From contig NZ_CP118225.1 of NCBI RefSeq assembly GCF_028768465.1, positions 1,240,001 through 1,304,000 on the forward strand: a DNA stretch of 64,000 nucleotides, given 5' to 3'. Position numbers and translations under genes: made by a program. Position 1 is the first letter of the stretch, and every line of letters starts with the position of its first letter. Shown here piece by piece: positions 3,950-25,340 of the stretch. The notes under the pieces are model-generated. The model did not search any database. It was not told where the DNA came from and saw only the letters and a list, made by a program, of their open reading frames with translations. This DNA comes from Rhodopirellula sp. P2. Lineage in GTDB: Bacteria > Planctomycetota > Planctomycetia > Pirellulales > Pirellulaceae.

Positions 3950-4110
3950 CACGTGTGGCGGACGCCTGCGATCCAGCGATGCGTCGAAGCCGGTTGGCAG
4001 GGAGGTTAAGGAACAACCACGTGAGCCGTTTGGGCGCTGCCTGGACTGCGAAACGTTTGGTATTGGCGATCTGATAGCGAACGCAATTTTTCTTCCGGCT
4101 TCTGTCTTTC

Positions 4111-4320: not shown

Positions 4321-4424
4321 AACTTGCGCAAACGCATGGCCGCCACAAGCCCAAACATTCAGCAGGCCAGCATGAGACTTGGTTGCGCGAGGGAACCGTG
4401 GCTAACGCCAAGCGGCTCACATAC

Positions 4425-8837: not shown

Positions 8838-9082
8838 GTTGCAGGAGGCCGCGAAGTGGTTGTCAAAATTGGCGTGAAAGGGGAGGCTGCGGACGGTTCA
8901 CGATACCAGTTCCAAATGGGAAGGCACAGTTGTGGATGGATCGGGGAATCAACCCTGGATATGACTGATGAAGGCGTTCGCAGACGCACCGATTGCAATG
9001 CCCTGCCGTCGGCAGTGGTCACCTTTGCCGATACATTGACTGCGAACGCAATCACCAGCGACCGGTTTTTGAAAGTACCGAG

Positions 9083-10060
9083 ATGAACAAAGGCCGCCTC
9101 GCGGTTTACGAATGGAATGCGTGGGAGCTGTTTGCGATTTGCGAATGGCGTCTCGATGCGTATCGAATCAAGGCCCATCCGGATGACGAAGTGCAGGACG
9201 TGCTCGCTCGTCTGCGACCTGACACTTCCGATTTCTTGGTGCATCTCAACCTCAGTCGGCAAGCGTTGTTTCCAAGGCAACGCAGCGAACTTTTCGAGGC
9301 TCTTGAGAAGAAAGGGATTCGCACATGGAATGCCAACGTCAACGACATGACCAAACGGTTTGTCCAAAGTGAGTGTCAGCGGCTTGGGCTCCCGACCACC
9401 GCGGCGACTCGGGACGGGGACCCTGAGGAGAAGTTGATTTTGAAGTCCGATTGCAACCACGGCGGCCGGAATGAACGCCGGCTCGATTTGGAAACTCGTC
9501 GTCGTTTGGGATTGCCTCCCGAATCAGCGGTGATCGACGGCAGTTTGGATTACCCAGTCATGAAGCGTTCTGAATTGACCGACCAATGGGATGATCCGGG
9601 GCTGGTTGCGGAACGGTTGATCGAAAACTCCCAAGGCGTCTACTATCGAGCCTACGCGATTGAGGGCCGATTGGTGATTTCTCGTTTTGTGCCACCGAAT
9701 CCCGAGCATCCCATTCAGCGAATTGAAGGTGCGAAAGCAAGACGCAATTTCTTGTACGAGGATTACACCTCCTTTGTCGGTGCCTCGGAATCGGACGATG
9801 CCCTGCCGGCTCGTTTGAAATCCGTCGTGGCTTCGTTCCTGATCGGGATTCCGCTCGACTTTGGTGCGCTCGATGTGGTCGAGGACAACGAAGGGAATTT
9901 CTACATCATTGATCTCAACATCACCCCGTATTGGGGCGTGCCAGGGCAACCCAAGATGACAAGGTTTCTCCGTCAGGAACCATCGCTGCGGGAAAAACTC
10001 TCAAAACGAATCGTTGGCTGGATTCCCTCGTGTTGTTCCAAGGACAAACGAGAAATCTGA
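9083..10060 (+). CDS. ATP-grasp-like ligase of unknown substrate
   Basis: A 325-residue protein starting at ATG 9083, chosen because the 30 codons upstream are not protein-like. ATP-grasp features are seen: a lysine loop KLILKSDCNHGGRNE near residue 118, an adenine-side VAERLIENSQGVYYRAYAI near 180 and the metal-binding end DFGALDVVEDNEGNFYIIDLN split near 265-285, with N in DLNITP taking the usual place. ATP-grasp enzymes join a carboxylate to an amine or thiol through an acyl-phosphate, as in peptide and modified amino acid synthesis. No family within ATP-grasp is recognised. The next gene (10107) follows after 46 bp on the same strand, so the two are likely co-transcribed and may act in one pathway. 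Confidence 0.72.
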   Translation: MNKGRLAVYEWNAWELFAICEWRLDAYRIKAHPDDEVQDVLARLRPDTSDFLVHLNLSRQALFPRQRSELFEALEKKGIRTWNANVNDMTKRFVQSECQRLGLPTTAATRDGDPEEKLILKSDCNHGGRNERRLDLETRRRLGLPPESAVIDGSLDYPVMKRSELTDQWDDPGLVAERLIENSQGVYYRAYAIEGRLVISRFVPPNPEHPIQRIEGAKARRNFLYEDYTSFVGASESDDALPARLKSVVASFLIGIPLDFGALDVVEDNEGNFYIIDLNITPYWGVPGQPKMTRFLRQEPSLREKLSKRIVGWIPSCCSKDKREI

Positions 10061-10106
10061 AACCTGAGACGGTCCAACCTCTTTTTCATTCACTGACGCT
10101 TCGCCG

Positions 10107-11438
10107 ATGCCGCTCACCTATCCGCTGACCCATTTCGAAGAGCTGATGCTGCATCAAGACAGCAACGCTTTTCCGACGAACTGCTTTGTTCGCATGCGGT
10201 TCCGCGGGCGCCTGGATGAACGTGGTTTCCGTGCGGCGGCACTCGTTGCGGTGGCGCGGCACCCATTGTTACATGCCCGGGTGCAGCGACATCGTGGGCG
10301 ATATCGCTGGCAGGTTGACGAGCCCGCACCTGAGATCTCTTGGTGCGATGGGACCGTTAACCAGCAGCCGACATTTCACCGATTGAACCTCGAGTCGGAA
10401 CACGGATTGAAACTGGCGGTTTGTTTGCAGGAGCATGAATCCGAGTTGATGGTCCAATTTCATCATGCCTGTTGTGATGGACTCGCGATCTTTCAGGTGG
10501 TTCATGAATTGCTGTTGGCCTATGCCATGGAGATCGATGGGAACGCAGACGTTTCGCTTCCGGAGATCGACCTCAGTTTGCTTCAGAACCGCGGTTCGCT
10601 TGGATTGACCGCGGGGAGGTTTCTTCGACTTGTCTCTCGCCAAGCCGTTGGCCTTCGCGGGGTCTGGCAGTTTTTGACGAGAAAGCCATCGCATCTGCTG
10701 CCGCATCGTGTGCCCCAACGCGCTGAACCCGCTCCGCTGAGTTTTCCGTCGGTGATGGCCCATCACTTTGAACCGGAGGTTTCGACTGGCCTGCGACGAG
10801 CCGCGAAACGAGCCAAAGTGACCCAGAACGACCTGTTGATCCGGGACCTGTTTCTGGCGTTGGAGGAGTTTCGTCGAGCGCAGGGCGTTGATGAACCAAC
10901 AAGCTGGTTGCGATTGATGATTCCGGTCAGCTTGCGACAAAAGCACCAGTACCAGGCACCCGCTGCCAACATTGTCAGCTCCGTGTTCTTGGACCGACGA
11001 GCGATCGACATGGAGGAACCGGAGCACCTGCTGCAAGACCTCAGCGAGGAAATGGGGCTGATCAAACGTCGCCACTTGAACTATTTGTTCCTGTATTCGT
11101 TGTGGGGACAGAGGATCTTGCCGCGTGGATTGGAGCGGACTGCGAGACCGAAACGCTGCCAAACGACGGTGGTCTTCACCAACCTCAGTCGCGTTTTCGC
11201 GAGGTCACCTTTGCCGCGCCAGGACGGTCGGCTGCAATGCGGGGACGTGGTGCTGATGCATGTTGAGGCGATCCCGCCGATCGCGAGACACTTGAATGCG
11301 GCTCTGGGCGTCAGTTGGTATGCAAACCAAATGACGATCACGCTGCACCATGATCCGCGAGCGGTTTCCCACGAAGCCGCCGGCGAGTTGCTAGGTGGGT
11401 TGGTTCGACGGATGCGGGAGTCCGCGAAGGCGAAGTGA
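10107..11438 (+). CDS. Condensation-domain/acyltransferase superfamily protein
   Basis: A 443-residue protein with the core of the CoA-dependent acyltransferase fold: MPLTYPLTHFEELML at the N terminus resembles the opening of condensation and wax-ester-synthase-like domains, and HHACCDG near residue 119 is the catalytic HHxxxDG. A second-lobe motif SWLRLMIPVSLR near 268 and TVVFTNLSR near 357 match the DFGWG-side and bridging strand positions of the family, although the DFGWG box is absent, as in stand-alone members. No carrier-protein or adenylation domain is attached. It follows the ATP-grasp gene by 46 bp and precedes a desaturase, which fits acylation of the cluster's product, but the acyl donor and acceptor are not known. 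Confidence 0.75.
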   Translation: MPLTYPLTHFEELMLHQDSNAFPTNCFVRMRFRGRLDERGFRAAALVAVARHPLLHARVQRHRGRYRWQVDEPAPEISWCDGTVNQQPTFHRLNLESEHGLKLAVCLQEHESELMVQFHHACCDGLAIFQVVHELLLAYAMEIDGNADVSLPEIDLSLLQNRGSLGLTAGRFLRLVSRQAVGLRGVWQFLTRKPSHLLPHRVPQRAEPAPLSFPSVMAHHFEPEVSTGLRRAAKRAKVTQNDLLIRDLFLALEEFRRAQGVDEPTSWLRLMIPVSLRQKHQYQAPAANIVSSVFLDRRAIDMEEPEHLLQDLSEEMGLIKRRHLNYLFLYSLWGQRILPRGLERTARPKRCQTTVVFTNLSRVFARSPLPRQDGRLQCGDVVLMHVEAIPPIARHLNAALGVSWYANQMTITLHHDPRAVSHEAAGELLGGLVRRMRESAKAK

Positions 11439-11648
11439 CACTCATTTCCCGACCGTTCCTAAATCGATTCGCGTTCTGCATGCGATGCAGAACGTCGTTT
11501 TGTGATTCCATCGCTCTGTCTTGTCTTGTCGGATCGCCCTACAATCCGCTTTCTGTTGAATGGATTCACGTTGGGGCCTCTTTGCCGCTGGTCAATTCGT
11601 TCATGCGGAAGCGAACGTCTTGAAGCACCTCCCCATTGGACTTGTCGG

Positions 11649-12644
11649 ATGACCCACGCCGATCAATCGGTCGCACCTGCGGCATCGCAGGAAGCCGAGT
11701 CGCTGGCGGGGGACGCTGTCAGCGAGGTGGAGCCCTATGAGTTCACGGAAATCGCGATACCGATCATTGCCATGCATGTTTTGGCTTTGTTTGCATTCGT
11801 ACCTGAATTCATCACCGGGACGAATGTGTTGTTGCTGATGATCAGCTTGGTCGTCTTCAGCAATGGAATCACGCTTGGCTACCATCGCTTGCTGACGCAC
11901 AAAAGCCTGCGAGTTCCTAAGTGGTTGGAATACGGCTACGTCGGGCTCGCGTTGTGTTGTCTGCAAGAGTCGCCGGCCAAGTGGGTTTCAACGCATCGAC
12001 GCCACCACAGTCATTCGGACGAGCCAGACGACCCCCATTCTCCGACGGCTAGCTTTTGGTGGTCGCACGTCGGTTGGTTGCTTTGGAAGCGAAAAGGGCA
12101 GCACGAGTTTCGCACGGATGATCGCTACTGTGCCGATATCATCGCCGATCCATTTTACGCCCTCATGGAAAAGTACCCCGATCTGCCGGCGGGAATCTAC
12201 ATCCTTCACGCAGGTGTGATTTGGTTGATCGCGTCAGCACTTTTCATGCTCGAAAACAGTTTCGGATCAGCGGTTTGGCAAGGTGCGGGCCTCGTGCTTT
12301 GGTGTGTCGTGTTGCGAACGGTCATGATTTGGCACTTCTCGTGGTCGGTCAATTCGCTGACCCATTGCTTCGGCTATCAAAACTACAAGACATCGGACCA
12401 AAGTCGAAACAATTGGTTGGTTGCCATCGTGAGCAACGGCGAAGGCTGGCACAACAACCATCACCATGATCCCGCGAGTGCATCGGTGCAGCACAAATGG
12501 TGGGAGTTTGACCCCACCTACCTTCAGATCCGAGTTCTCAAACGACTCGGATTGGCAACGCATGTGATCCAGCCTCGGCAAGTCCGCAAGAGTGTCGTTG
12601 GACTGGACGATCCAAGCGGTCTGAACAAGCAGGCGGGTTCGTGA
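11649..12644 (+). CDS. Membrane acyl-CoA/acyl-lipid desaturase
   Basis: A 331-residue di-iron membrane desaturase (fatty acid desaturase type 1). The three histidine boxes are HRLLTH near residue 79, HRRHH near 117 and HNNHHH near 268, in the spacing of delta-9 desaturases. Four hydrophobic stretches (about 35-70, 90-105, 180-215 and 220-245) form the membrane part. ATG 11649 is preferred over in-frame sites further up because the added 49 residues are not conserved-looking. The enzyme would put a cis double bond into a fatty acyl chain using O2 and an electron donor. Housekeeping is possible, since many bacteria have a single such gene, but it lies between the acyltransferase (210 bp upstream) and the GT4 gene (convergent), so a role in tailoring the cluster's acyl group is reasonable. 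Confidence 0.9.
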   Translation: MTHADQSVAPAASQEAESLAGDAVSEVEPYEFTEIAIPIIAMHVLALFAFVPEFITGTNVLLLMISLVVFSNGITLGYHRLLTHKSLRVPKWLEYGYVGLALCCLQESPAKWVSTHRRHHSHSDEPDDPHSPTASFWWSHVGWLLWKRKGQHEFRTDDRYCADIIADPFYALMEKYPDLPAGIYILHAGVIWLIASALFMLENSFGSAVWQGAGLVLWCVVLRTVMIWHFSWSVNSLTHCFGYQNYKTSDQSRNNWLVAIVSNGEGWHNNHHHDPASASVQHKWWEFDPTYLQIRVLKRLGLATHVIQPRQVRKSVVGLDDPSGLNKQAGS

Positions 12645-14129: not shown

Positions 14130-14263
14130 TCTTGCTTGCGTAGCGAGTCATGGCCCGCTGCCCACCTGTGCGAACTCACCAATCCGCTCTGGGATCCGTT
14201 CTAACGGTTGAAACTCGCCACGAATAGCAACGGCTGAGTGATCAACTGTGTTCCTCACTCCGA

Positions 14264-14399: not shown

Positions 14400-14837
14400 A
14401 TGGACGGAGTCATGTATTTCGCGATCAATTCGCCAGCGCTTTCGCACAATGCTTTTGACGATGAAACAATCGTCATCCATTTCGCGACCGGGAACTACTT
14501 CAGTTTGCGAGAGATGGCAGAAACGATTTGGCAACGCTTGGAACAGCAGCCCTTGACGGTTTCTGCGATCGTGGACGCGTCGGAGGGAGCACCCCCGGAA
14601 GCGGCAGCCGAAGTGGAGAGCTTTTTGAAGCAACTGCTGCAGAATGATCTCGTCTGTGAACTGCAGGATCATGCCAGCCCTGAATCGGTCGAGAGCCTCG
14701 GAGCTTGGCGCACGCCGACCATGGAAGTCTTCGACGATATGAAAAACATGTTGCTCGGGGACGTCATCCACGACACCGACAAGGCTGGCTGGCCTCAGAT
14801 GGTCCAAGACGACCAGACTGCTCCTGGCACCCGCTAA
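14400..14837 (+). CDS. PqqD-like peptide chaperone (RRE) with conserved-looking C-terminal tail
   Basis: A 145-residue acidic protein. Residues 1-90 read as a PqqD-type RiPP recognition element: a short first strand region (MYFAINSPALSHNAF), DDETIVIHFATGNYFSLREM (a beta turn before the first helix), then IWQRLEQQPLTVSAIVDAS and VESFLKQLLQNDLVCEL as the paired helices. PqqD domains bind leader peptides and present them to modifying enzymes. The rest (about 100-145) is a tail with TPTMEVFDDMKNMLLGDVIH then DTDKAGWP, a form I recall from the tails of other stand-alone PqqD family proteins (from memory, not a search). It leads an operon with an HprK-like kinase 45 bp on, then GT2 and a nucleotidyltransferase. 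That trio is known from peptide-modification systems, including some lasso peptide clusters. The tail could be a substrate peptide or a docking sequence; which one is not shown. Confidence 0.78.
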   Translation: MDGVMYFAINSPALSHNAFDDETIVIHFATGNYFSLREMAETIWQRLEQQPLTVSAIVDASEGAPPEAAAEVESFLKQLLQNDLVCELQDHASPESVESLGAWRTPTMEVFDDMKNMLLGDVIHDTDKAGWPQMVQDDQTAPGTR

Positions 14838-14881
14838 CCTCAGGACAGTGGTGATTGGTCACGATCATCGCGAGAGATGAC

Positions 14882-15928
14882 ATGACAACGATCACAACCC
14901 GCGATGATTCTCAGGCTGCTTTGAAGCGGCAGTTTGACCGTGTCGCCGAAAGCGATGGCTTGGTCGAAAGGCGATTGTCGATTGGTGGACGTCAGGTTTG
15001 TTTGAAGTTCGCTGGTCAGCCGTTGCTGCGTCGATTGATGCCGGCTTTGGAACACCACCCTGAAGGCAGTGGTCCGACCGAACTGACCATTCATTTTTGG
15101 GATAGCGCCACGCCGCCGGTGGAGCACTCGTTGGCGGAGTGGACCGGTTTGCAATCCGTCATTCGCCCGGCCAGCGACTCGTGCTGGACTTTGATTGAAC
15201 CGGGGATTGGTTTGTTCAGTCGGCTGACGCAGGATGGGAATGCGTTTGTTTGCTGTCGAAATGGCGATGAGCTGCCGGTTTGGGAATCCGCGGTTCCGAT
15301 GCGCTCGTTGTTGAACGCATGGTCTGCACCGCACGGGAGCGTGGTTCATGGTGCCGCGGTGGGAAACGATCAGGCGGCGGTTCTACTGGCGGGAGTGGGT
15401 GGGTCGGGGAAATCCAGCACCGCGCTGACCTGTCTTGCCGAGCCAGATCTTTGTCATTTGGGCGATGACCTCGTCATGCTCACCAACGATCCGCAGCCCT
15501 TGGTCAACAGCCTGTACAACTCTGCAAAACTGCTGCCGGATAATCTTCGCCGTTTCAGTGATCTGTCGCTGTCGGTCAATCCGACCCTGCCACGCAATCC
15601 AGAAAAAGAGACTTACTTTTTGTTTCCGCAATTCGCGGAAAAGTTGGCGATGCAGCGGCCCCTGAAAGCGATCCTGCTGCCGAGAGTCAGTGGCGAAACT
15701 CAGACCAGTCTGGTCCCGGCTTCCCAAGCCGACGCCTGGCACGCAATTGTGCCCGTCACGCTGACGTTGTTGGGTGGCACTCGGCCCGAGAACATTCAGG
15801 CGATTGCGGAGATCATCAAACGTGTTCCGGTCTATCGCTTGAATCTGGGCTCGGATCGCACCGGGATTGCTCCCGTCATTCGTCGGGTGCTGGACGGACA
15901 TGAGCTCGAAGAAGGAGTCTCGCGGTGA
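14882..15928 (+). CDS. HprK-like (HPr serine kinase C-terminal type) P-loop kinase
   Basis: A 348-residue protein read from ATG 14882 (a TTG at 14855 would add nine residues). The P-loop is LLAGVGGSGKSS near residue 170, preceded by HGAAVGNDQAAV, the arrangement in the C-terminal kinase domain of HPr kinase and its relatives, and is followed by LGDDLVMLT near 200, which takes the place of the Walker-B-like acidic motif. The N-terminal 150 residues have no match I can name and may recognise the substrate. Relatives beside PqqD proteins phosphorylate peptides or serine side chains in some lasso peptide systems; here the neighbours are PqqD-like (upstream), a GT2 overlapping by 4 bp, and NTP_transf_5. 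So peptide phosphorylation is the leading idea, with the substrate not seen. Confidence 0.78.
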   Translation: MTTITTRDDSQAALKRQFDRVAESDGLVERRLSIGGRQVCLKFAGQPLLRRLMPALEHHPEGSGPTELTIHFWDSATPPVEHSLAEWTGLQSVIRPASDSCWTLIEPGIGLFSRLTQDGNAFVCCRNGDELPVWESAVPMRSLLNAWSAPHGSVVHGAAVGNDQAAVLLAGVGGSGKSSTALTCLAEPDLCHLGDDLVMLTNDPQPLVNSLYNSAKLLPDNLRRFSDLSLSVNPTLPRNPEKETYFLFPQFAEKLAMQRPLKAILLPRVSGETQTSLVPASQADAWHAIVPVTLTLLGGTRPENIQAIAEIIKRVPVYRLNLGSDRTGIAPVIRRVLDGHELEEGVSR

Positions 15929-16590
15929 AGGAAACCATCAGTGTTGTGATCCCGGCCTACAACGCCGAGCCGTTTCTGGCCGAGGCGATTGAGAGTTGCC
16001 TTGCGCAAACGCGGCAACCCAATCAGATCATCGTGATCGATGATGGGTCAACGGATCGCACAGCAGAGGTTGCACGCGGGTTCTCGGATGACGTCACGCT
16101 GGTTTGTTTGGAAAGATGCGGCGCCGGTGTTGCTCGCAACGCGGGTCTTGCCGCTGCGACAGGTGACTACATCGCGATGCTGGATGCCGATGATCGGATG
16201 ACGCCGGATCGACTTCAGTTGCAAATCGATCTGTTCGATGCCCGTCCGGAGATTGACATCGCTTATGGTCATCAACTGATTTTCCAAGATGGGGAAGACC
16301 CGGTGGAGCAACATCAACAGGGCACGGGGCGTGTTCTGACTCCATGCGTGACTGGGACGGTGACGTGCCGCCGGAGCGTCTTCGATGATGTCGGTCCGTT
16401 TTCGGAAGATCCTGAGACGATCGAGGTGCTCGATTGGTTTGCTCGGGCGGAAGACAAAGGGATTCTTTCCGTCAGCGTTGAGCAGATTGTCCTTTATCGA
16501 CGGCAGCATGCCAGCAATTGGTCCACTCTGAACCGCTTGAAATACGTTCATATGCTGAAAACGGTATTGGACCGGAGACGGGCCCAGTGA
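15925..16590 (+). CDS. Glycosyltransferase family 2, short
   Basis: A 221-residue GT-A protein starting at GTG 15925, overlapping the kinase stop (GTGA) by 4 bp. It has ISVVIPAYNAEPFLAEAI near residue 5, IIVIDDGSTDRTAEV near 35, GVARNAGLAAATGDYIAM near 70 and the DxD as LDADDRMTPD near 85. There is no membrane segment and no C-terminal extension, which is short for GT2 (commonly 230-330). The acidic catalytic region near 155-165 reads TIEVLDWFARAED. The overlap with genes on both sides indicates translational coupling with the kinase and nucleotidyltransferase. It probably adds a sugar to the peptide or lipid handled by the operon. Confidence 0.87.
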   Translation: MKETISVVIPAYNAEPFLAEAIESCLAQTRQPNQIIVIDDGSTDRTAEVARGFSDDVTLVCLERCGAGVARNAGLAAATGDYIAMLDADDRMTPDRLQLQIDLFDARPEIDIAYGHQLIFQDGEDPVEQHQQGTGRVLTPCVTGTVTCRRSVFDDVGPFSEDPETIEVLDWFARAEDKGILSVSVEQIVLYRRQHASNWSTLNRLKYVHMLKTVLDRRRAQ

Positions 16591-18188
16591 CGTTTTTGGC
16601 GCGTTGGATGGATGGGGATCAAACTTGGCCGCGTGGTTGTTGGCCGAACGAGGCACAGCGGTTGTTGCTGCAAGCGTGTTTGCTCGAAGACGATGCCGCC
16701 GCGACACGTGCTTGGCAGAAATGGGAAGAGTTGGTCCCGTGGGACTTCATCGATTTCGGCTCGCATCGATTGTTGTTGTTGCTGCATGATCGTTTGCGTC
16801 GCCTCGGTCTGACATCGCGGAATCAAGGCCGGTTGGCTGGCGTGGCTCGCTACTATTGGGTGCAGACGGAATTGCGCCAGCGGCAAGCGATTGCGATTCT
16901 TCAGCTCTTCGAGAACGCCCAGATTCCAACGTTGCTGCTCAAGGGAGCCGCACTGAACGCGACGGTGTACCGGACTGGGTTTCGTGCTATGAACGACCTG
17001 GATGTGGCGGTCCGCCGCGAAGATGCTCCGCGGGCCGTTCAGCTTTTGAACGAAGCGGGGGCCGCACCACCGACAAGCGTGTCGGATGATTCGTTTCGTG
17101 TTGGGCATGGCACCAACTTCAGTCTGGGCAACGGCACCGAGGTTGATCTTCACTGGGACTTTTTCCACAGTCGTTCGCTGTCGTCTGATCAGCAGCAATC
17201 GTTGTGGGATGCCAGTTTGCCAGTGAAAATTGGACCCGCCAGCAGTCGTGTGTTGTGTCCCGCTGATCAACTGTTGCACACCTGTGAGCATGGCGTTCGA
17301 TACAACGAAACCCCGCCGTTTCGTTGGCTGGCGGACTCCTTTCAAATCATTCGAGCGGCGGGAACCGATTTGGATTGGCAGCGACTCGCCGCGCAGGCGA
17401 GGGAATGGAATGCTGTGTTGCAGGTTCGTCGAAGTCTGCAATGGCTGAACGATCACTTGGATCTGCCGATTCCAGACGAGGCCTTGGCAAACCTGGATGA
17501 GAGCAAGGTGTCGCTTGCCAACCGTTTGGAGTACCGGGTGACAGGGCAGCGGGGAATCGCGGGGCAGCATACTTTTTGGCAGACGTTCCCGGAGCATGTT
17601 TTCGCGTGGCATCGTCAAGGACGCCTTGGTTCGCTTGTCAAATACCACTGCTTGCAACACAACATCAGCCAGAACCATGGGGCTCGATGGTTGGAATTCA
17701 CCAAGCTTGGGGTGCTGCAAACCGCGTCTCGGGTGAAAGCGGTGGTTCCGTCCGTTCGAAAGGTGCATCGCTTCGTCGTCAGTACTCTGGCGGATGACGA
17801 AATCATCGGTTGCCATGAAGTCGAACGATCGGGGCATCGAACGTTCCGCTGGACCAGTGGTGAGTCAACGCTGGTCGTGACGCTCCCACGCGGTGACTAC
17901 GACGTTGATGTTCAGGTGTTTCCGTGGCGTGATTGGGGGGCCGATTTGGCTTCGGAATTGCGAGTCGATTTCAATCGAAACGTTTGTTTGATCAGTCCGT
18001 TAGGGAATCGCAATCGTGTTTTGCGGTTTTCAATTCAGCGTGATATGTTTGGCTCCGCGTCGCAGCAGCGTCTCACATTTCGATGTGGCAGCTTTCGAGA
18101 TGTACCGGAAGACGAAAAGCGGCATCTTGGGCTTCCGTTGAAAGCGGTTTGCTTTCGGCCACGAAAATGCGCGGGCATTGAGTCGTGA
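16587..18188 (+). CDS. Nucleotidyltransferase of the NTP_transf_5 family
   Basis: A 533-residue protein from GTG 16587, which overlaps the GT2 stop by 4 bp as in the gene before. The core (about residues 95-300) has LLKGAALNATVYRTGFRAM followed by NDLDVAVRREDAP, giving the G-x-x-x...D-x-D pattern of the polymerase-beta-like fold, and EVDLHWDFF near 185 for the third acidic residue. HTCEHGVRYNETPPFRWLAD near 240 is typical of NTP_transf_5 (PF14907). Residues 390-530 form an additional beta-rich domain (about 390-500 with RSGHRTFRWTSG and TLPRGDYDVDVQ) of unknown role. Members occur with PqqD proteins and HprK-like kinases and are thought to act on peptide or sugar phosphates; the true reaction is not established. 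Confidence 0.82.
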   Translation: MTFLARWMDGDQTWPRGCWPNEAQRLLLQACLLEDDAAATRAWQKWEELVPWDFIDFGSHRLLLLLHDRLRRLGLTSRNQGRLAGVARYYWVQTELRQRQAIAILQLFENAQIPTLLLKGAALNATVYRTGFRAMNDLDVAVRREDAPRAVQLLNEAGAAPPTSVSDDSFRVGHGTNFSLGNGTEVDLHWDFFHSRSLSSDQQQSLWDASLPVKIGPASSRVLCPADQLLHTCEHGVRYNETPPFRWLADSFQIIRAAGTDLDWQRLAAQAREWNAVLQVRRSLQWLNDHLDLPIPDEALANLDESKVSLANRLEYRVTGQRGIAGQHTFWQTFPEHVFAWHRQGRLGSLVKYHCLQHNISQNHGARWLEFTKLGVLQTASRVKAVVPSVRKVHRFVVSTLADDEIIGCHEVERSGHRTFRWTSGESTLVVTLPRGDYDVDVQVFPWRDWGADLASELRVDFNRNVCLISPLGNRNRVLRFSIQRDMFGSASQQRLTFRCGSFRDVPEDEKRHLGLPLKAVCFRPRKCAGIES

Positions 18189-19350
18189 GTCAACCAAAGC
18201 AGTGTCATCGCCCCACCCGCCGCATCTCCACTTGGTGGATCCGACCGACAATTTCAGTGAAAGAGAATTGATGTCCAACCTACGTTCCGTTGGAGTCGTG
18301 CCGGGATCAACCGATTCAACGGGGATTCAGACCGACCGCTACGAGATTCCATCCAATCCTGAGGGGCGAATTCGACTGGCGCCGCAAACAACGTTCTCGA
18401 TGCATCGCAGCGGATGGACCGGCGCGATGGATGCTTTGATTCCGGAGCACAATGAGAACGGCGTGATCTTTGATGGCTTTTTAGATCGCCTTTTCGATCC
18501 TCATTGGCCGCACGAGATGGGACCGATGTTGCCGCTGACTCAGCCTTGGACAGGTGTCTTTCACAACCCGCCAGGTGTGGAAGGTTGGCACAGTTCATCC
18601 GGGGCTCCCCAACGTCTGCTTGCCTCCGCCGCGTTTCGCGACAGCCTGCCGGCATGCCGAGGACTCTTCACCCTGTCGGATTACTTGTCCGATTTTCTTG
18701 CGGAAGAAACCGGGCTGCTGACCTCGACGCTGAGACATCCAACGGAAATTCCTGATCGGCTGTTTCGCATGGATGCCTTTGCAAACGAAGCGGAAAAGAA
18801 GGTTGTGATGGTCGGTTGGTGGTTGCGAAAATTGGCGGCGATCTATTTTCTGCCCTTGGATCACGCCAGCGGGTTTCGAAAGTATCGACTGATCAGCAAC
18901 CCATGCACGGAAATGGAACAAGCAAGTTTGTTGAAACAAGAGTTTGTGCGACAGTCGATGGCTCTTCGACAACCCCTGTTGCCCGCCTATCGTGACAACA
19001 CGTTCGCATTGCCGCGGCATAGCAATGCTGAATACGACGAGTTGCTTTCAACGAGCATCGTGTTTCTCGATCTTTACGATGCATCCGCTAACAATGCCGT
19101 GGTCGAATGCATCGCGCGTGCGACCCCATTGCTGATCAATCGCATTGCGCCCGTCGAAGAATACTTGGGCGTGGACTACCCGTTTTACTTTGAGTCTTTG
19201 GACGAGGCCGCTCGAAAGGCCCAAGATTTGAACTTGGTCGCGACAACTCACGAGTATCTGATGCAGTGTCCGATGCGGAAGAAGCTTTCAACGTCAACTT
19301 TCCTGGACGATTTTCGCAGCAGCGATGTCTACCAGAATTTGAAGATGTGA
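18178..19350 (+). CDS. Glycosyltransferase-like protein, family not recognised
   Basis: A 390-residue protein with a TTG start at 18178 that overlaps the preceding stop by 11 bp; ATG 18271 is the next in-frame alternative. The late block STSIVFLDLYDASANNAVVE near residue 290, then CIARATPLLINRIAPVEEYL and GVDYPFYF, looks like the donor-side lobe of a GT-B fold: the E at the position of the nucleotide-ribose contact and a typical loss-of-face loop. Earlier text (SMHRSGWTGAM, FTLSDYLSDFL, MVGWWLRKLAAIYFLP) would be the acceptor lobe. No signal or membrane segment. It sits between the nucleotidyltransferase and a GT4 gene, on the same strand, so a sugar-transfer role is the most likely reading. 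Other fold assignments remain possible. Confidence 0.62.
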   Translation: MSRESTKAVSSPHPPHLHLVDPTDNFSERELMSNLRSVGVVPGSTDSTGIQTDRYEIPSNPEGRIRLAPQTTFSMHRSGWTGAMDALIPEHNENGVIFDGFLDRLFDPHWPHEMGPMLPLTQPWTGVFHNPPGVEGWHSSSGAPQRLLASAAFRDSLPACRGLFTLSDYLSDFLAEETGLLTSTLRHPTEIPDRLFRMDAFANEAEKKVVMVGWWLRKLAAIYFLPLDHASGFRKYRLISNPCTEMEQASLLKQEFVRQSMALRQPLLPAYRDNTFALPRHSNAEYDELLSTSIVFLDLYDASANNAVVECIARATPLLINRIAPVEEYLGVDYPFYFESLDEAARKAQDLNLVATTHEYLMQCPMRKKLSTSTFLDDFRSSDVYQNLKM

Positions 19351-19444: not shown

Positions 19445-20653
19445 TTGACTGACCACGTGAACGAACGCACCCAACGACGTCTCTTGATCGACGGAACGAA
19501 GCTGGCCGATTCGGTGTCCGATGGGATCCGCCGGTACGTTTCAGGGCTTCTTGGTGCGATGAGAGCGGTTGCGGATCCGCATCCTGAGTGGGCCGTGGAT
19601 GTCCATGTCGGTTCACGTATCATCCCGCTCGCTGAAATTGACTCGTGGCTGACGCTGCCGGAACCGCAAGCGACTGGGGCAGGGCAGTTTTTTCGAGGGA
19701 CGTTGGACCTGATTCGTTTGCAGCATCATGTGCGGACGTCGCGGTACGATGTCGTGCATCAAACCATGCCGAATACCTTTCACACGTTTCGGCGTTTTCG
19801 AGGCGGCCGCTTGGTCACGGTTCATGATCTTTCCCATTTGGCATGCCCTCAGTGGCAGGCCGCTGTGAACAGCGAAAGCTTGGAACGCGGGCTGCTCGAT
19901 GCCACCGAGCGAAACGCTTGGTTCAGCACGGACACGGATTTCATCCGCCAGGAAATGATCACCCGTTGTGGTCTGTCGAACATCGCTGTCACCGGTGCCG
20001 GTTGCGATCGATCCATTTTCCATTCGCAATATTCGCAAGAAGCGAAAGACGCTGTCAGGCGGAAGTATGCGATGCCCGACGCTCCGTTTTTGCTTTCGGT
20101 TGGGACCTTGGAGCCGCGGAAAAATTTGTTGGGGACGGTGCGAGCTTACCGGCGATTATTGGAAACGAACCCGCAAACGCCGATCGAGCTGGTCATCGTT
20201 GGGAAATACGGTTGGGGCGATCTCGGTGAGGTGTTCGAGGCCGCGAAAGATTGCGATCGGATCCACTGGCTCGGGAGTGTTCCGGACGAGGATTTGCCAC
20301 TGATTTATTCTCAAGCGGAGGCCCTGTCGTATGTCTCGCACTACGAAGGATTCGGCTTGCCACCGCTGGAATCGATGAATTGTGGTGTGCCCGTGATTTA
20401 TGGTTCCGGGACCGCGGTGGCCGAGGTGGTTGCGGACGCAGGTTGGGCAGCCGATCCCAACGACATCGAACAGATCGGCGGTTGTTTTGTTGAACTGGTC
20501 ACTCGCCCTGATCTTCGCGAAGAACGGTCTCGAAAGGCGATTGCTCGGTCGGAACAGTTCGATTGGCAACGCGTTGCCGAAGCGATGTGGGAGCAATACA
20601 TGCTCGTCGCGGAAAGTTCTGCCTCTCGGTTGGCAGGCGGATGCGAGTCATGA
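19445..20653 (+). CDS. Glycosyltransferase family 4
   Basis: A 402-residue GT-B enzyme from TTG 19445 (GTG 19457 is nearly as likely; neither has a clear ribosome binding site). The N-terminal lobe has DGIRRYVSGLLGAMR near residue 25 and GRLVTVHDLSHLACP near 120. The C-terminal lobe has FLLSVGTLEPRKNLLGTVRA near 215 and HYEGFGLPPLESMNCGVPV near 300, the classical E-x7-E donor site of GT4. It is most like mannosyl/rhamnosyl-type GT4 proteins. It lies 94 bp after the previous gene and 10 bp before the GT32 gene, on the same strand, so it likely adds a further sugar. Confidence 0.9.
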   Translation: MTDHVNERTQRRLLIDGTKLADSVSDGIRRYVSGLLGAMRAVADPHPEWAVDVHVGSRIIPLAEIDSWLTLPEPQATGAGQFFRGTLDLIRLQHHVRTSRYDVVHQTMPNTFHTFRRFRGGRLVTVHDLSHLACPQWQAAVNSESLERGLLDATERNAWFSTDTDFIRQEMITRCGLSNIAVTGAGCDRSIFHSQYSQEAKDAVRRKYAMPDAPFLLSVGTLEPRKNLLGTVRAYRRLLETNPQTPIELVIVGKYGWGDLGEVFEAAKDCDRIHWLGSVPDEDLPLIYSQAEALSYVSHYEGFGLPPLESMNCGVPVIYGSGTAVAEVVADAGWAADPNDIEQIGGCFVELVTRPDLREERSRKAIARSEQFDWQRVAEAMWEQYMLVAESSASRLAGGCES

Positions 20654-20663
20654 TCGCAAGCTG

Positions 20664-21449
20664 ATGAGCATTCCGAAAATCCTGCATCAAACCTGGAAAG
20701 ACGAAGACGTTCCCGAAGACTTTTCTGAATGTGTCCAGTCGTGGAGGACCCATCATCCGGATTGGCAGGTTCGATTGTGGACTGATCAAGACAACCGGCA
20801 ATTGATCGCGAAAGAGTACGCTTGGTTCTTGGAGACGTACGACGGCTATCCGACGGCCATTCAACGCGCCGATGCAATTCGGTACTTCATTCTCCATCGG
20901 TTTGGAGGCATGTACGCGGATCTCGACTTCATTTGTCTGAAGCCCCTCAATCCATTGTTGGATGGGCGAGACTGCGTCGTGGGGATGGAACCTCCTCAGC
21001 ATTGTCGGCACCATCGGATTCCCAATCTGTTGTGCAATGCACTGATGGCAGCGGCACCCGGGCATCCCTTCTTTGAGAGTGTGATCCGGCGATTGCCTGA
21101 ATTCGTTTGTCACGTTGAAAACAACGAGCCAATTCTCAGCAGCACGGGCCCGATCATGATGTCGCGTGTCTGGGATGATTTCGCGGCACCTGATTCCGTC
21201 ACCGTGCTTCCCTCTCGGTTCTTGTATCCGTTGACGATGCACCAGGCGGCTCAGTACCGGCTTGCGGGGCATGTGGGCGTCGATCTTTCCGACGCGTTTG
21301 CCATCCACCTTTTCTATGGCACTTGGTGGAAGACTGATCGATGGGATCGGAATTGGCGAGGCTACTACAAGCTGAAGTCTTGGATTCAGCGGCGCGGAAG
21401 TGGGCTCTGGGATCGCATTTTGGCATCGCAGGGCAGTCCACGCTCGTGA
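20664..21449 (+). CDS. Glycosyltransferase family 32 (OCH1/capsular-type)
   Basis: A 261-residue protein from ATG 20664, ten bases after the GT4 stop. It opens with MSIPKILHQTWKDEDVP, the IPKxxHQxW signature of GT32. Then comes AIQRADAIRYFILHRFGGMY near 65 and the DxD in YADLDFICLKP near 85. This is the DXD-sugar-binding fold used in OCH1 and in bacterial polysaccharide transferases. A basic, aromatic C-terminal stretch (RWDRNWRGYYKLKSW near 230) could bind the membrane surface. It most probably transfers one hexose to a growing oligosaccharide or peptide. No other domain is present. Confidence 0.9.
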   Translation: MSIPKILHQTWKDEDVPEDFSECVQSWRTHHPDWQVRLWTDQDNRQLIAKEYAWFLETYDGYPTAIQRADAIRYFILHRFGGMYADLDFICLKPLNPLLDGRDCVVGMEPPQHCRHHRIPNLLCNALMAAAPGHPFFESVIRRLPEFVCHVENNEPILSSTGPIMMSRVWDDFAAPDSVTVLPSRFLYPLTMHQAAQYRLAGHVGVDLSDAFAIHLFYGTWWKTDRWDRNWRGYYKLKSWIQRRGSGLWDRILASQGSPRS

Positions 21450-21645: not shown

Positions 21646-23289
21646 ATGAAACTGCTTCTGATCCTGCTTCGATCGTCCTGGGTTTCTGGCCTGATTTCCG
21701 GACTTCTGGGAGCGTTCAGCGGTGTCGCGAATCTCGGCTTGATCATGCTGATCCACCATGCTTTGACGGGGGACCCGTCCGAAGCCGGTTCGTTGCCGTA
21801 CTTATTCGCGGGCGCCTGTGTATTGGTGCTGATCACACAGGTGACGGCCAAGTGCTTGCTCGTTCAGCTGTCGCAGGCAACGGCGGCTCGATTGCGATAT
21901 GAGCTGTGCACCAAAATCATTTCGGCTCCCTTGCCGACATTGGAATCCGTTGGGTCGCATCGGTTGTTGGCCGCCTTGATCAATGATGTCAACGCGATCA
22001 CGTCGGCCTTGTCCGCTTTTCCGGCCGCATGCGCCAACGCGATGGTGTTGGTTTGTGGGCTGGTGTACTTGGCCACCCTGTCTCTTCCATTGGCGGGCGG
22101 GACGATCGTGATGGCCGGCATTGGCGTGTTCACGTTCATGACAGGGCTGCGGTTTGCCAACCGGCATTTGCGACAGGCTCGGGAAGACCAAGACGAGGTG
22201 GTCAAGCAATTGCGGGCCATGATTGATGGCATCAAAGAGCTGAAAGGCAACAACATGCGATGTCTGGACTTTGTCTATGACGTGTTGTTGCCAGCCGACA
22301 CAAAGATGCGTCACAGCCTGATCATCGGTTCGAACATACAGGGATTTGCGCACAGCTGGGGACGATTGTTCCTGTTCATTGGCATCGGGTTGTTGTTGTT
22401 CGCTTGGCCGCAGATCGCCACCGTGTCGACGGCGACGTTGACCGGATACGTGCTGACCATTTTGTATCTGACTTATCCGTTGGATGGAATTTTGGGTTGG
22501 TTGCCGGCGATGAACGGTGCCTCGATCGCGGTGGCCAAGATTGAAAAGTTGGGGTTGATGATCGATCAGCCCGAGCAGCAGACCTCGCACGTCGCACCGA
22601 CCAAATTTGAGTCGCTTGAGATGCGAAGCGTGACCTATCAATACGATTCAACCGGCGAAGAATGCTTTGCACTGGGCCCCGTCGATTTGACGCTCTCGCC
22701 CGGTGAGATTTTGTTCATCGCAGGTGGCAACGGCAGTGGAAAAACAACGCTCGCGAAATTGTTGACTGGACTCTACGTTCCCGACGCCGGTCAGGTGTGC
22801 TGGAACGGTCGGGATGTGACCAACAAGGTCCGAGCTGACTACCGCCAGCTCTTCTCGACTGTCTTTGTCGAAGGGCACCTTTTCGATCGGCTATTGGGCA
22901 TCGATGTCACGTCCGGCAAGTTGGAGCATTGGATCTCTCTGCTGGGAATGGAAGAAAAGGTTGACGTGCAAACCGGTCGATTGTTGACGCAAGAACTCTC
23001 TCGAGGTCAGCACAAACGTTTGGCATTGTTGGTTGCGGCGCTGGACGATCGTCCGATCTTTGTTTTCGACGAATGGGCCGCCGAACAAGATCCGGGATTC
23101 AAGGATGTCTTTTACCAACAGATCCTGCCAGAGCTTCGACGGATTGGGAAAACCGTTGTCGCGATCACGCATGATGACCGCTACTTCTCCGTTGCCACGC
23201 GCGTGCTGATGGTCGTGGATGGTCGGTTGACTGATGCGACGCAGAAAGCGGCTGATTCGTTGCACGTCATCCACCGGGACGCAGCGTGA
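21646..23289 (+). CDS. ABC exporter of the cyclic-peptide type (PvdE/SyrD-like)
   Basis: A 547-residue half-transporter: six membrane helices (residues 1-310) fused to an ABC ATPase. Walker A is GGNGSGKTTLAKLL near 361, the signature is LSRGQHKRLALLVAALD near 450 in place of LSGGQ, Walker B is IFVFDEWAAEQDP near 470, and the switch histidine is AITHDD near 505. LSxGQxKRLALLxA together with DEWAAEQDP is the hallmark of the cyclic peptide exporter family (PvdE, SyrD, YojI). In pyoverdine biosynthesis the relative moves the acylated precursor over the inner membrane for maturation in the periplasm. The gene follows GT32 after 196 bp and overlaps the MacB-like gene by 4 bp. The substrate is inferred to be this locus's product. 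Confidence 0.87.
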   Translation: MKLLLILLRSSWVSGLISGLLGAFSGVANLGLIMLIHHALTGDPSEAGSLPYLFAGACVLVLITQVTAKCLLVQLSQATAARLRYELCTKIISAPLPTLESVGSHRLLAALINDVNAITSALSAFPAACANAMVLVCGLVYLATLSLPLAGGTIVMAGIGVFTFMTGLRFANRHLRQAREDQDEVVKQLRAMIDGIKELKGNNMRCLDFVYDVLLPADTKMRHSLIIGSNIQGFAHSWGRLFLFIGIGLLLFAWPQIATVSTATLTGYVLTILYLTYPLDGILGWLPAMNGASIAVAKIEKLGLMIDQPEQQTSHVAPTKFESLEMRSVTYQYDSTGEECFALGPVDLTLSPGEILFIAGGNGSGKTTLAKLLTGLYVPDAGQVCWNGRDVTNKVRADYRQLFSTVFVEGHLFDRLLGIDVTSGKLEHWISLLGMEEKVDVQTGRLLTQELSRGQHKRLALLVAALDDRPIFVFDEWAAEQDPGFKDVFYQQILPELRRIGKTVVAITHDDRYFSVATRVLMVVDGRLTDATQKAADSLHVIHRDAA

Positions 23290-25340
23290 TTGAACTGCAT
23301 GGCCTTCGCAAAGACTACCGGGTCGGCGATCACGATCTGCCAGTGCTCAAGGGCATCACGCTGAACATCGAAGCGGGGGAATACGTCGCGTTGATGGGAT
23401 CGTCAGGGTCTGGGAAGACAACCCTGATGAACTTGCTGGGGAGTTTGGATCATCCGACTGATGGCGACTATCGTTTGGCCGGGATCGATGTTTCGCGTCT
23501 GACACCGTTGGAACTGGCCGCGTTTCGAAGCCAGCACATCGGGTTTGTGTTTCAGAACTTCAACCTGCTTCCACGTGCGACCGCACTCGACAACGTGATG
23601 CTGCCGACGATCTATGCATCGGACGGCAGGTCGAGACGGGAGTGCATCGAAGACGCGACGAAGTTGCTGGAGTCCGTCGGTCTGGGAGGTCGGCTGGACC
23701 ACATGCCCAATCAATTGTCGGGTGGTGAACGACAGCGAATCGCGATCGCTCGCGCGTTGATGAACCGTCCCAAACTGTTGCTGGCCGACGAGCCAACTGG
23801 GAACCTGGACACGGTCACGGAACAAGAAATTCTGGCGTTGTTTCGGAAGCTCAATCAGGAGCATGGCATCACGTTGGTGGTGGTCACGCATGATGCGGAG
23901 GTCGCTCATGAAGCGGACCGTGTTGTGCGCATGAAAGATGGATTGGTTGCGGAGGATGTTCGCCAACGAGCTTCCACTGTCGATCGATCGAAGCTTGCGA
24001 ATTCGAGATCAGGGCCCCTGCGTGAGCCGGCATCTGCATGGCCACTGGCTGCCACTTGGAATGCGGTGGTTGTGGCTGTTTTGGCACTCCGTCGCAATGC
24101 GTTGCGGACCGTGCTGACGATGCTGGGGGTGATCATCGGAGTGGCCTCCGTGATTTCGACGATGGAACTGAGTGCCGGTGCGTCCACTGCGATTGAAGAA
24201 ACGGTCGCGAGCATGGGCGCCAGCATGCTGACGATCAGCCCTGGCAAAGCGTCCAGCACCAGTGGACGTCAGCGTCCGATTCAGATCATTCCTGACGATG
24301 TGGTGGCGGTCTCCGAGCAATGTTCGGCCGTCAAGATTGCCGCTCCGCTTGTGTATTCTCAAGTCCAATTGGTTCGCCAGAATCGCCGTTGGAGTCCCAA
24401 TCTCGCTCTTGGTACAACGCCGCAATACTTGGCGGCACGGAACTGGGATCAGTTGGAAATGGGAACGCCATTCACGCAGGAACAAGTTCTCGATGCGGCC
24501 AAGGTTTGCATTTTGGGCAAAACCGTCGCTCTCGAATTGTTTGATTTGGAGTACCCGATCGGCGAAGAAATTCGCGTCAACGGGGTTCCGCTGCGCGTCG
24601 TTGGCGTCCTCACCGAAAAGGGTGGGGATGTGATCGGAAATGACCAGGACGACATCATCATCGGACCTTGGACGACGTTCAAGCTTCGCGTGAACAGCAG
24701 CACAGGCGTGACGGCTCAGTTCAGCACCTTTGCGGATCAGATGCCACCGATGCAATTGGCATCGACCAGGCGCTCGACGCAACGAGAAGAGATTCACCAG
24801 ATCTACGTGGAGGCCGAGTCTCCAGAGCATGTGGAACTGGCCCGTCAACAAATCACTCAGGTGCTTTCCCGCCGTCACAATGTGGAGCCTGCTGGTGCCT
24901 ATCGCATCAACGACATCACGGAAGTCTCCAAAGTTGTCGGGCAAGTCGTGGGCGGTGTTTCAGCATTGGGGTTGGTGATTGCAGGCGTTTCGCTGATGGT
25001 GGGTGGCGTGGGAATCATGAACATCATGTTGGTCTCGGTCACCGAGCGGACGCGTGAAATTGGTTTGCGGATGGCGGTCGGAGCCAACCGCAGTGCGATC
25101 CTTAGTCAATTTCTGATTGAGGCGACCGTGTTGTGCGTGGTGGGCGGGTTCCTCGGCATTTTCGCGGGCCACATGTGGTCCGTGCTGGTTGGCCGAGTGA
25201 TCGGTTGGCCGACCGCAATGTCGATCTGGGCACCGATTGTTGCCGTGACCGTTGCCGCGACCGTGGGCATCGTTTTCGGTTACTACCCCGCCCGAACGGC
25301 GTCTCGGTTGAATCCGATCGATGCGTTGCGGTACGAGTGA
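23286..25340 (+). CDS. MacB-like ABC permease (ATPase and FtsX-type permease in one chain)
   Basis: A 684-residue protein from GTG 23286, overlapping the previous stop by 4 bp. The N-terminal ATPase (1-235) has GSSGSGKTTLMNLLGSLD near 38, LSGGERQRIAIARALM near 140, and LLLADEPTGNLD near 163. A short linker leads to the MacB permease: first helix near 265-290 (LRTVLTMLGVIIGVASVIS), a large periplasmic domain (about 300-545), and three helices (about 555-580, 610-635 and 645-670), with TERTREIGLRMAVGANR as the conserved turn. It would work with the MacA-like (4425-5687) and TolC-like (2036-3949) proteins in this locus to pump a substrate out of the periplasm, as MacB and PvdT do. Coupling to the PvdE-type exporter is the main reason to see a two-stage export route. 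Confidence 0.92.
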   Translation: MIELHGLRKDYRVGDHDLPVLKGITLNIEAGEYVALMGSSGSGKTTLMNLLGSLDHPTDGDYRLAGIDVSRLTPLELAAFRSQHIGFVFQNFNLLPRATALDNVMLPTIYASDGRSRRECIEDATKLLESVGLGGRLDHMPNQLSGGERQRIAIARALMNRPKLLLADEPTGNLDTVTEQEILALFRKLNQEHGITLVVVTHDAEVAHEADRVVRMKDGLVAEDVRQRASTVDRSKLANSRSGPLREPASAWPLAATWNAVVVAVLALRRNALRTVLTMLGVIIGVASVISTMELSAGASTAIEETVASMGASMLTISPGKASSTSGRQRPIQIIPDDVVAVSEQCSAVKIAAPLVYSQVQLVRQNRRWSPNLALGTTPQYLAARNWDQLEMGTPFTQEQVLDAAKVCILGKTVALELFDLEYPIGEEIRVNGVPLRVVGVLTEKGGDVIGNDQDDIIIGPWTTFKLRVNSSTGVTAQFSTFADQMPPMQLASTRRSTQREEIHQIYVEAESPEHVELARQQITQVLSRRHNVEPAGAYRINDITEVSKVVGQVVGGVSALGLVIAGVSLMVGGVGIMNIMLVSVTERTREIGLRMAVGANRSAILSQFLIEATVLCVVGGFLGIFAGHMWSVLVGRVIGWPTAMSIWAPIVAVTVAATVGIVFGYYPARTASRLNPIDALRYE

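Follow-up and report, generated by a model that had tools for sequence, protein, structure and literature searches.

Within a 64,000-nucleotide stretch of the Rhodopirellula sp. P2 genome (contig NZ_CP118225.1, positions 1,240,001 to 1,304,000; referred to here as the window, with positions counted from its first letter), four consecutive forward-strand genes encode a PqqD-like protein, an HprK/phosphoenolpyruvate carboxykinase (PEPCK)-superfamily kinase, a family 2 glycosyltransferase (GT2), and an NTP_transf_5 nucleotidyltransferase. The PqqD-like protein ends in a conserved tail that consists of a leader-like segment and a core-like end, and tails of this type accompany related kinase and GT2 genes in many bacterial groups. 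We see an even chance that this protein is a recognition element for ribosomally synthesized and post-translationally modified peptides (RiPP recognition element [RRE]) that is fused to its own cognate peptide, which the kinase, GT2, and NTP_transf_5 protein would modify. An earlier, sequence-only reading of this DNA had taken the combination of PqqD, HprK-type kinase, and NTP_transf_5 as pointing to peptide modification, and this view is supported, as the same combination is found in the pseudomycoidin and linear polyphosphorylated peptide (LPP) systems as described in the available parts of the published accounts.

A conserved tail on the PqqD-like protein

The PqqD-like protein gene (14400 to 14837, + strand, with an in-frame ATG at 14412) matches PF05402 with an E value of 3.6e-11 and a score of 43.7 bits (cut-off, 23.4). 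Three parts can be distinguished in its product, all on the + strand: an RRE (PqqD) domain (14412 to 14669; model residues 1 to 86), delimited by the predicted local distance difference test (pLDDT) score and by a fold match to TbiB1; a leader-like tail segment, WRTPTMEVFD, with a WxxP motif (14706 to 14735), in which an extra strand is predicted at model residues 103 to 107; and a core-like tail end, DMKNMLLGDVIHDTDKAGWPQ... (14736 to 14834), recognized by its sequence, its lower pLDDT, and its conservation in a 123-row alignment. Related PqqD proteins have an RRE domain followed by a variable Ala/Pro-rich linker and then the conserved C-terminal tail, with the consensus [FYW]xxPxLxkYxDMxxLLLLDPIHxVDxxGWP and 3 to 17 residues after it. 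The recognition motif of discrete lasso peptide and LPP RREs is given as [Y/W]xxPx[L/V/I/F/A] in the available text of PMC13381572 and PMC12710340, and the [FYW]xxP of the tail matches it. In the window protein, an Asp residue of the core-like end (14760 to 14762) is located at +18 from the Trp residue.

An AlphaFold2 model of the window protein, starting at the ATG at 14412 and based on an alignment (A3) of 73 rows chosen from 118 candidates, has a mean pLDDT of 87. The score is 95 to 98 for residues 1 to 80, 89 for residues 81 to 90, 93 for residues 91 to 100, and 92 for residues 101 to 110, and it is about 60 for the last 31 residues, which form the conserved end; in this model the placement of the conserved end is uncertain, and the end is probably free. 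The top solved folds for the model are lasso B1 RREs that were crystallized with leader peptides (TbiB1, VIA-align Z of 11.6 over 84 residues with a root mean square deviation [rmsd] of 2.4; TfuB1, Z of 10.2), and NisB from the complex with the NisA leader aligns with model residues 1 to 109 (Z of 8.4, 94 residues). Compared by itself with solved structures, the tail gave no match. At the level of families, 72 of the 73 alignment rows match PF05402 at an E value of 0.001 or better, and 73 tail proteins match PqqD-type NCBIfam models, which on the window protein end at residue 81 of 141.

Spread of the tail and its association with the kinase

DNA encoding tail ends of the form DPIH[DE]xxxxGWP was sought on both strands of 257 billion bases of genome contigs; since this pattern is fixed in length, longer tail variants are missed. 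The scan gave at least 116 loci, compared with a chance expectation of about 1.4 in a hand calculation that assumes equal base frequencies. Judging from 80 of the 116 record titles, which are mostly those of metagenome-assembled genomes (MAGs), these loci span at least 14 phylum-level groups: Pseudomonadota, Cyanobacteria, Bacteroidota, Chloroflexota, Acidobacteriota, Verrucomicrobiota, Gemmatimonadota, Actinomycetota, Chlamydiota, Planctomycetota, Bacillota, Cloacimonadota, Sumerlaeota, and Binatia. A PqqD-domain profile, built partly from these same proteins, is matched by 112 of the 116 listed motif open reading frames (ORFs), and at least two of the four others (L079 and L140, the remaining two being L135 and L169) are located at the end of a stretch.

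Several tail positions are conserved without being forced by the search pattern, namely, P114 (112/123), Y/F119 (119/123), D121 (120/123), and L126 (112/123), in the 123-row alignment, which includes four near-duplicate rows. Among 124 tails (128 motif ORFs minus four near-duplicates), [FYW]xxP is present in 109, compared with 23% of shuffles, and in all 109 of these the Asp residue of DPIH is at +18 from the leader aromatic residue. T or S stands directly before DM in only 87 of the 124 tails. PqqD proteins do not carry the tail as a rule: a search with the full-length alignment matched 85 of 392 genomes of the phylum, and in 8 of these 85 the match extends into the tail.

The association was also approached from the kinase, by seeking a tail within 8 kb of each kinase match with an E value of 1e-40 or better. 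Within the window's phylum, 5 of 392 genomes gave such a match; in the other genome sets, the figures are 5/194 (six loci), 2/151, 1/145, 5/249, and 4/198. A tail-bearing PqqD protein is encoded at 22 of these 23 loci, and the remaining locus, L246, runs off its contig. Two further loci, L058 and L057, fell below the 1e-40 limit and were kept out of this census; both are tail bearing, and the L058 tail ends in DPIHEVKPETGWK, which does not fit the consensus. The divergent tails at two planctomycete loci, L015 and L017, adjoin a kinase homologue and GT2 and could represent a second tail class.

Kinase, GT2, and NTP_transf_5 genes

The window lies within a 7.29-Mb planctomycete chromosome (genome G000). 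Downstream of the PqqD-like protein gene, and likewise on the + strand, are the genes for the kinase (14855 to 15928 from a TTG start, with an in-frame ATG at 14882), the GT2 (15925 to 16590; PF00535, E value of 4.1e-35), and the NTP_transf_5 protein (16587 to 18188; PF14907, E value of 7.5e-40 and 137.5 bits against a cut-off of 31.2). The sequence-only reading had noted one reading direction, two GTGA overlaps, and the motifs GVGGSGKSS, KGAALN, and NDLDV, all of which are present. The 4-base GTGA overlaps are at 15925 to 15928 (kinase/GT2) and 16587 to 16590 (GT2/NTP_transf_5), and the latter requires that NTP_transf_5 starts at the GTG at 16587 and not in the longer frame from the TTG at 16518. 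The PqqD-like protein and kinase genes do not overlap, being separated by 17 bp (TTG start) or 44 bp (ATG). Substitutions relative to two congeners are concentrated at third codon positions (for example, 32 of 49 in the PqqD-like protein gene and 68 of 107 in the kinase gene relative to G003), which indicates that all four frames are translated. The same cluster is present in G003 (7,145,576 bases), with protein identities of 82 to 97%. A kinase search of 13 genus-level genomes found close copies in three (G000, which is the window's own, G003, and G009) and divergent copies in G001 and G002; the other eight gave no match.

By sequence, the kinase is marginally HprK-like, with PF07475 matched at an E value of 0.21 and 11.6 bits, under the cut-off of 33.3. 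It has a P-loop (GVGGSGKSS, 15392 to 15418) and a GDD motif (15461 to 15469), and residues H58, P139, H156, G174, G176, K177, D196, and K242 are invariant among 26 aligned homologues. The AlphaFold model (pLDDT of 88; predicted TM score of 0.89) matches PEP carboxykinases over its whole length (Z of 17.9, 309 residues, rmsd of 4.6) and HPr kinases mainly in the C-terminal domain (Z of 14.2 over 140 residues for 1ko7). The earlier description of this protein as HprK-like is borne out by the fold of the C-terminal domain, the P-loop, and the invariant H156 and D196, but not by the family profile. Based on the invariant residues and the fold matches, we predict that it is an active HprK/PEPCK-superfamily kinase. 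In a search of planctomycetes, five matches at 1e-40 or better span nearly the whole kinase model, and most weaker ones cover the C-terminal half only.

Homologues of the three enzymes were counted with profiles of planctomycete proteins, and 35 of the 116 listed loci have at least 5 kb of sequence downstream of the tail. At these 35 loci, the kinase was found at 33, GT2 at 34, NTP_transf_5 at 24, and an Asn-synthase homologue at 1; the kinase, GT2, and NTP_transf_5 occur together at 24. GT2 is present in two copies at 19 loci, one at 10, three at 4, four at 1, and none at 1. Over all 116 listed loci, regardless of flank length, the counts are 88 for the kinase, 92 for GT2, 56 for NTP_transf_5, and 1 for Asn-synthase. 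The kinase is encoded on the PqqD strand in 87 of 88 cases and downstream in 86 of 88, with 61 kinases beginning at most about 150 bp after the PqqD stop. Furthermore, 13 distinct loci encode a kinase-GT2 fusion (17 ORFs are listed, four of them seen twice), and at 3 of these the fusion has two GT2 domains. In the divergent planctomycete cassettes L015 to L020 (L015 being a 9.5-kb contig), a kinase homologue and GT2 are present in 6/6 and NTP_transf_5 in 5/6. Given the presence of GT2 at 34 of 35 loci and the kinase-GT2 fusions, GT2 is a regular member of the cassette and not an insertion, and the first view, that a GT2 between the kinase and the nucleotidyltransferase is unusual, is not supported.

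The NTP_transf_5 protein carries KGAALN and NDLDV with a conserved DxD, and K142, G143, D160, and D162 (numbering from 16518) are conserved in 51 to 57 of 59 to 60 homologues; among solved structures there was no sequence match. Past the PF14907 match, the protein continues C-terminally for about 245 amino acids (17445 to 18185), and the end of this extension presumably resembles a beta domain of some glycosyltransferases. Two other observations concern the distribution of the cassette. Genome G016 encodes four kinase homologues (L017, L019, L020, and L021), three of them with PqqD, GT2, and NTP_transf_5 in differing contexts, which suggests that the gene set can be multiplied inside one genome; the fourth, L021, a weak match with an Asn-synthase, was kept out of the cassette comparison. 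A cassette is also present at L084, in a MAG record titled Klebsiella pneumoniae, where a naming or binning error seems more likely than a real enteric copy.

Search for a separate precursor and other RiPP components

Small ORFs of at least 18 amino acids, mostly outside called genes, were compared between window positions 1 to 27100 and two congeners where the sequences could be aligned; the second congener covers 4844 onward only, and about 4030 to 4370 aligns to neither. No intact small gene with third-position bias was found in the alignable gaps of this region. Two candidates were rejected: the frame at 14 to 385 shows such a bias (32 of 43) but forms the end of a larger gene, whose product has 470 amino acids in G003, and a 22-codon TTG frame at 14136 to 14204, where third positions account for 11 of 16 changes, contains indels in both congeners. 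Among 786 small ORFs around the tail loci, six groups were found, each common to two related loci only (L107/L160 or L109/L121). The absence of any short conserved peptide near the homologues would have counted against the sequence-only reading, and for discrete ORFs in these flanks, such pairs apart, this absence is what was found; but a conserved peptide does exist, in the form of the PqqD C-terminal tail.

Other components of known RiPP systems were sought as well. PF13471, the B2 leader peptidase family, had no match in genomes G000, G003, G001, and G002; it matches in 7 of 22 genomes, and in G016, G411, G454, and G460 the match is on a contig other than that of the cassette (G449, G453, and G455 were outside this comparison). 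An Asn-synthase-like cyclase gave no match in window positions 1 to 45000 and, with a single-sequence profile and many short flanks, a match at one of the 116 listed loci. For the SpI-type signal peptidase (TIGR02228), 11 of 15 genomes including G000 gave no match and none of the 15 had one at the cassette; the matches are on other contigs in G411, G110, and G454 and about 2 Mb from the cassette in G003.

Surrounding cluster and export genes

The four genes are followed, on the same strand, by a gene for an unassigned cluster protein (18178 to 19350, with an ATG at 18271; no Pfam match, NCBIfam E value of 0.094), which is syntenic in two congeners, and by genes for a GT4-type glycosyltransferase (19445 to 20653; PF00534, E value of 4e-25), a glycosyltransferase with a DXD sugar-binding region (20400 to 21449; PF04488, E value of 2.7e-23), an ATP-binding cassette (ABC) exporter of the cyclic-peptide-export type (21646 to 23289; TIGR01194, E value of 3.6e-125, over the cut-off), and a MacB-type ABC permease (23286 to 25340; PF12704, E value of 8.2e-41, and PF02687). 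The exporter also matches the MsbA model, under its cut-off. Upstream are an HlyD-type membrane-fusion protein gene (4425 to 5687, - strand; PF16576 and PF13437) and an outer-membrane efflux protein (OEP) gene (2036 to 3949, + strand; PF02321, E value of 4e-19). The divergent cassette L018 adjoins a close homologue of the exporter (70% identity) and has homologues of the MacB-type and HlyD-type proteins. In the wider set, a nonspecific ABC-transporter profile is matched at 15 of the 35 well-flanked loci, and clustering revealed an ABC protein of about 540 amino acids at 25 of the 116 listed loci. An export role of such proteins outside the genus of Rhodopirellula is weakly supported by these sequence matches.

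The regions at 8993 to 12644 and 25365 to 26870 encode a weakly ATP-grasp-like protein, a PapA/wax-ester-synthase-like acyltransferase, and a DesA-like desaturase, all under the NCBIfam cut-offs, as well as a male-sterility/thioester-reductase-type short-chain dehydrogenase/reductase (SDR). With acyltransferase, desaturase, and SDR genes in the cluster, its product might also be acylated.

Interpretation and alternative explanations

If the PqqD-like protein is an RRE fused to its own peptide, the leader-like [FYW]xxPxL segment would, according to the model, fold back in cis as an extra strand on the RRE domain, leaving the conserved end DMxxLLLLDPIHxVDxxGWP and the few residues after it free. 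The kinase, GT2, and NTP_transf_5 protein could then act on the presented end, with phosphoryl transfer first and sugar or nucleotidyl transfer afterwards, to give either a peptide that is phosphorylated, glycosylated, or both, or a glycan anchored on the peptide; in Rhodopirellula sp. P2, this product might be exported via the adjacent peptide-type ABC exporter together with the MacB, HlyD, and OEP parts. We infer as much for the filling of the leader cleft by the strand, the role of the tail as the substrate, the order of the steps, their chemistry, and export. Phosphoryl transfer followed by sugar transfer is proposed by analogy with two systems. In LPP, which are produced by the lpp cluster of Paenibacillus alginolyticus, LppK phosphorylates LppA at Ser3, and deletion of lppN, the NTP transferase gene, changed nothing in the host used, according to the available text (PMC13381572). 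In the case of pseudomycoidin, the accessible parts of the reports have PsmK phosphorylating the peptide and credit PsmN with adding hexoses to phosphoserine (PMC9266682, PMC5067487). A glycosylated and phosphorylated peptide, as suggested by the sequence-only reading, is a possible product; that reading points in the right general direction but misjudged the peptide and the part played by GT2. By our own count, the phosphorylated Ser3 in the LPP precursor motif YxxPxVLxHQxIxFETxxS, as given in the available text (PMC13381572), has the same +18 spacing as the Asp residue of DPIH; with about nine near-invariant tail positions, this agreement could be due to chance and serves as a lead rather than a test.

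A number of observations weigh against this interpretation. No modification or product was observed, and the low pLDDT of the tail end is no proof that it is free. Occupancy of the leader cleft (β3/α3) is something we infer from the extra strand that the model predicts. The window's own tail is divergent (GDVIHDTD), the aromatic-xxP motif is missing from 15 of the 124 tails and from the tails at L229 to L231, which were found via the kinase, and the tails at L015 (LDPPSPVL...) and L017 (LDPPLPVL...) keep the leader-like part but have no H or GWP. Ser and Thr are absent from DPIH to the end in 24 of 124 tails, so there is no obligatory phospho-acceptor, and, unlike the core of a diversifying RiPP, the end hardly varies from phylum to phylum. 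The kinase-anchored census is not fully independent, as 6 of its 23 loci are in centre genomes that had been selected for having the tail, 1 is the window, and the alignment used for the kinase searches was itself derived from tail loci. Finally, none of the 35 well-flanked loci encodes a protein of at least 450 amino acids that matches the profile of the window-type exporter at 1e-30.

It is possible, although we are inclined to doubt it, that the tail serves as a short linear docking motif, which holds the RRE protein to the kinase and GT2 or switches them on, the real substrate being a sugar, a lipid, or a nascent glycan. Such slight variation of the end in at least 14 phylum-level groups is typical of a binding motif, the tails offer no conserved hydroxyl acceptor, and the window cassette is located inside a glycosyltransferase-rich cluster; however, docking alone would leave aside that the tail has an RRE recognition motif and a predicted strand on its own RRE at the place where known RREs hold the substrate leader, and that related kinases with similar partners phosphorylate peptides in the LPP and pseudomycoidin systems, as far as the available accounts go. 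The many glycosyltransferases in the window cluster and the GT2 genes of the other cassettes (one to four copies each in 34 of 35) would also suit a plain polysaccharide locus, in which the three enzymes make a surface sugar with the PqqD-like protein in an accessory role that involves no peptide chemistry; we hold this to be improbable, as it assigns no role to a consistently co-occurring RRE with a leader-like tail and a peptide-type ABC exporter adjoins the cassette in the window.

The stand-alone RREs of the LPP and lasso systems use separate precursors, as stated in the accessible text of PMC13381572, and our own precursor search covered the cassette flanks, so that the RRE might serve a precursor encoded elsewhere in the genome, with the tail as an autoinhibitory placeholder that the precursor displaces. 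There is little to recommend this explanation when the small ORFs near cassettes are common only to pairs of related genomes, the alignable window gaps hold no intact constrained small gene, and 22 of 23 census loci retain the tail alongside the kinase. That the genes simply form a lasso peptide or LPP cluster is very improbable: the RRE is closest to lasso B1 proteins, and an HprK-type kinase and NTP_transf_5 are shared, but neither a separate precursor nor, in the window's genome, a match to PF13471 or SpI was found, the four genomes that do have SpI have none near the cassette, and the Asn-synthase homologue is confined to the single listed locus mentioned above.

Returning to the fusion of the RRE with its own peptide, a more specific version of it, which we regard as unlikely, is that the tail is a universal peptide carrier on which a species-specific glycan is built. 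The kinase would activate the invariant Asp residue of DPIH as an acyl phosphate, NTP_transf_5 or GT2 would start the glycan, and other glycosyltransferases would extend it before export. Independently of this version, the spread of the set over many phyla with a near-invariant end suggests that its function is conserved and that the peptide is not the product of an arms race, and the kinase-GT2 fusions genetically tie the kinase to a sugar transferase. With the probable peptide at the end of the RRE protein itself, clusters of this kind look empty to genome mining, which commonly starts from an RRE and then seeks a separate short precursor close by. They offer small expressible parts with which the action of HprK-type kinases and NTP_transf_5 proteins on peptides can be studied.

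Comparison with known systems

The gene set was not found described in the literature searched, from which subscription papers and supplements were excluded and which included available parts of PMC12710340, PMC7470986, PMC9266682, PMC5067487, and PMC9902471; neither an RRE-precursor fusion nor the strings DPIHEVD, DPIHDVD, LLLLDPIH, and PIHEVDE turned up there. Several known systems share parts of it. Like the HPr-rel-A (TIGR04352, TIGR04353) and SynChlorMet ScmC/ScmD (TIGR04249, TIGR04248) pairs, it joins a PqqD-family protein to an HprK-related kinase, but the window proteins are under the curated cut-offs, and membership in HPr-rel-A was rejected at 17.8 versus 200 bits for TIGR04352 and 25.4 versus 35 bits for TIGR04353. 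The likeness to the PEARL/3-thiaglutamate system, as outlined in the accessible portion of PMC9016710, is one of logic only, with a ribosomal peptide as a building scaffold; the enzymes differ, and no enzyme of the PEARL type was noticed among the cassette genes, without a search aimed at one.

The closest parallels are with the LPP and phosphorylated lasso systems, which are compared here as they appear in the available parts of the sources. Shared with LPP are a discrete RRE, an HprK-like kinase, an NTP transferase, an ABC exporter (in the window), the [Y/W]xxP motif, a polysaccharide-locus setting, and the lack of a cyclase. LPP systems have a separate precursor with a variable C terminus and an SpI-type leader peptidase, whereas here the leader and a near-invariant end are fused to the RRE and no such peptidase was found at the cassette; in addition, GT2 is a core member here and the set spans many phyla, whereas LPP are stated by their authors to be restricted to Bacillota (PMC13381572, in the text available). 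An LPP-like set is present in another planctomycete, and thus outside Bacillota, at L250 (G110:C104, 7628 to 9437, - strand), where a 73-amino-acid ORF, whose leader-like start reads KYQKP, lies together with genes for an HprK-like kinase and a signal-peptidase-like protein (TIGR02228, over the cut-off) near a contig end. With the paeninodin and pseudomycoidin lasso systems, the set described here shares a B1-type RRE fold, an HprK-type kinase, and a nucleotidyltransferase. In contrast to phosphorylated or glycosylated lasso systems, no B2 peptidase, Asn-synthase-like cyclase, or separate precursor was found with it, its kinase model matches PEPCK along the N-terminal part too, and some of its kinases are fused to GT2. 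Taken together, we regard this coherent and widespread gene set as a variant of RRE-guided peptide modification that is related to both the LPP and the phosphorylated lasso systems and is a member of neither.

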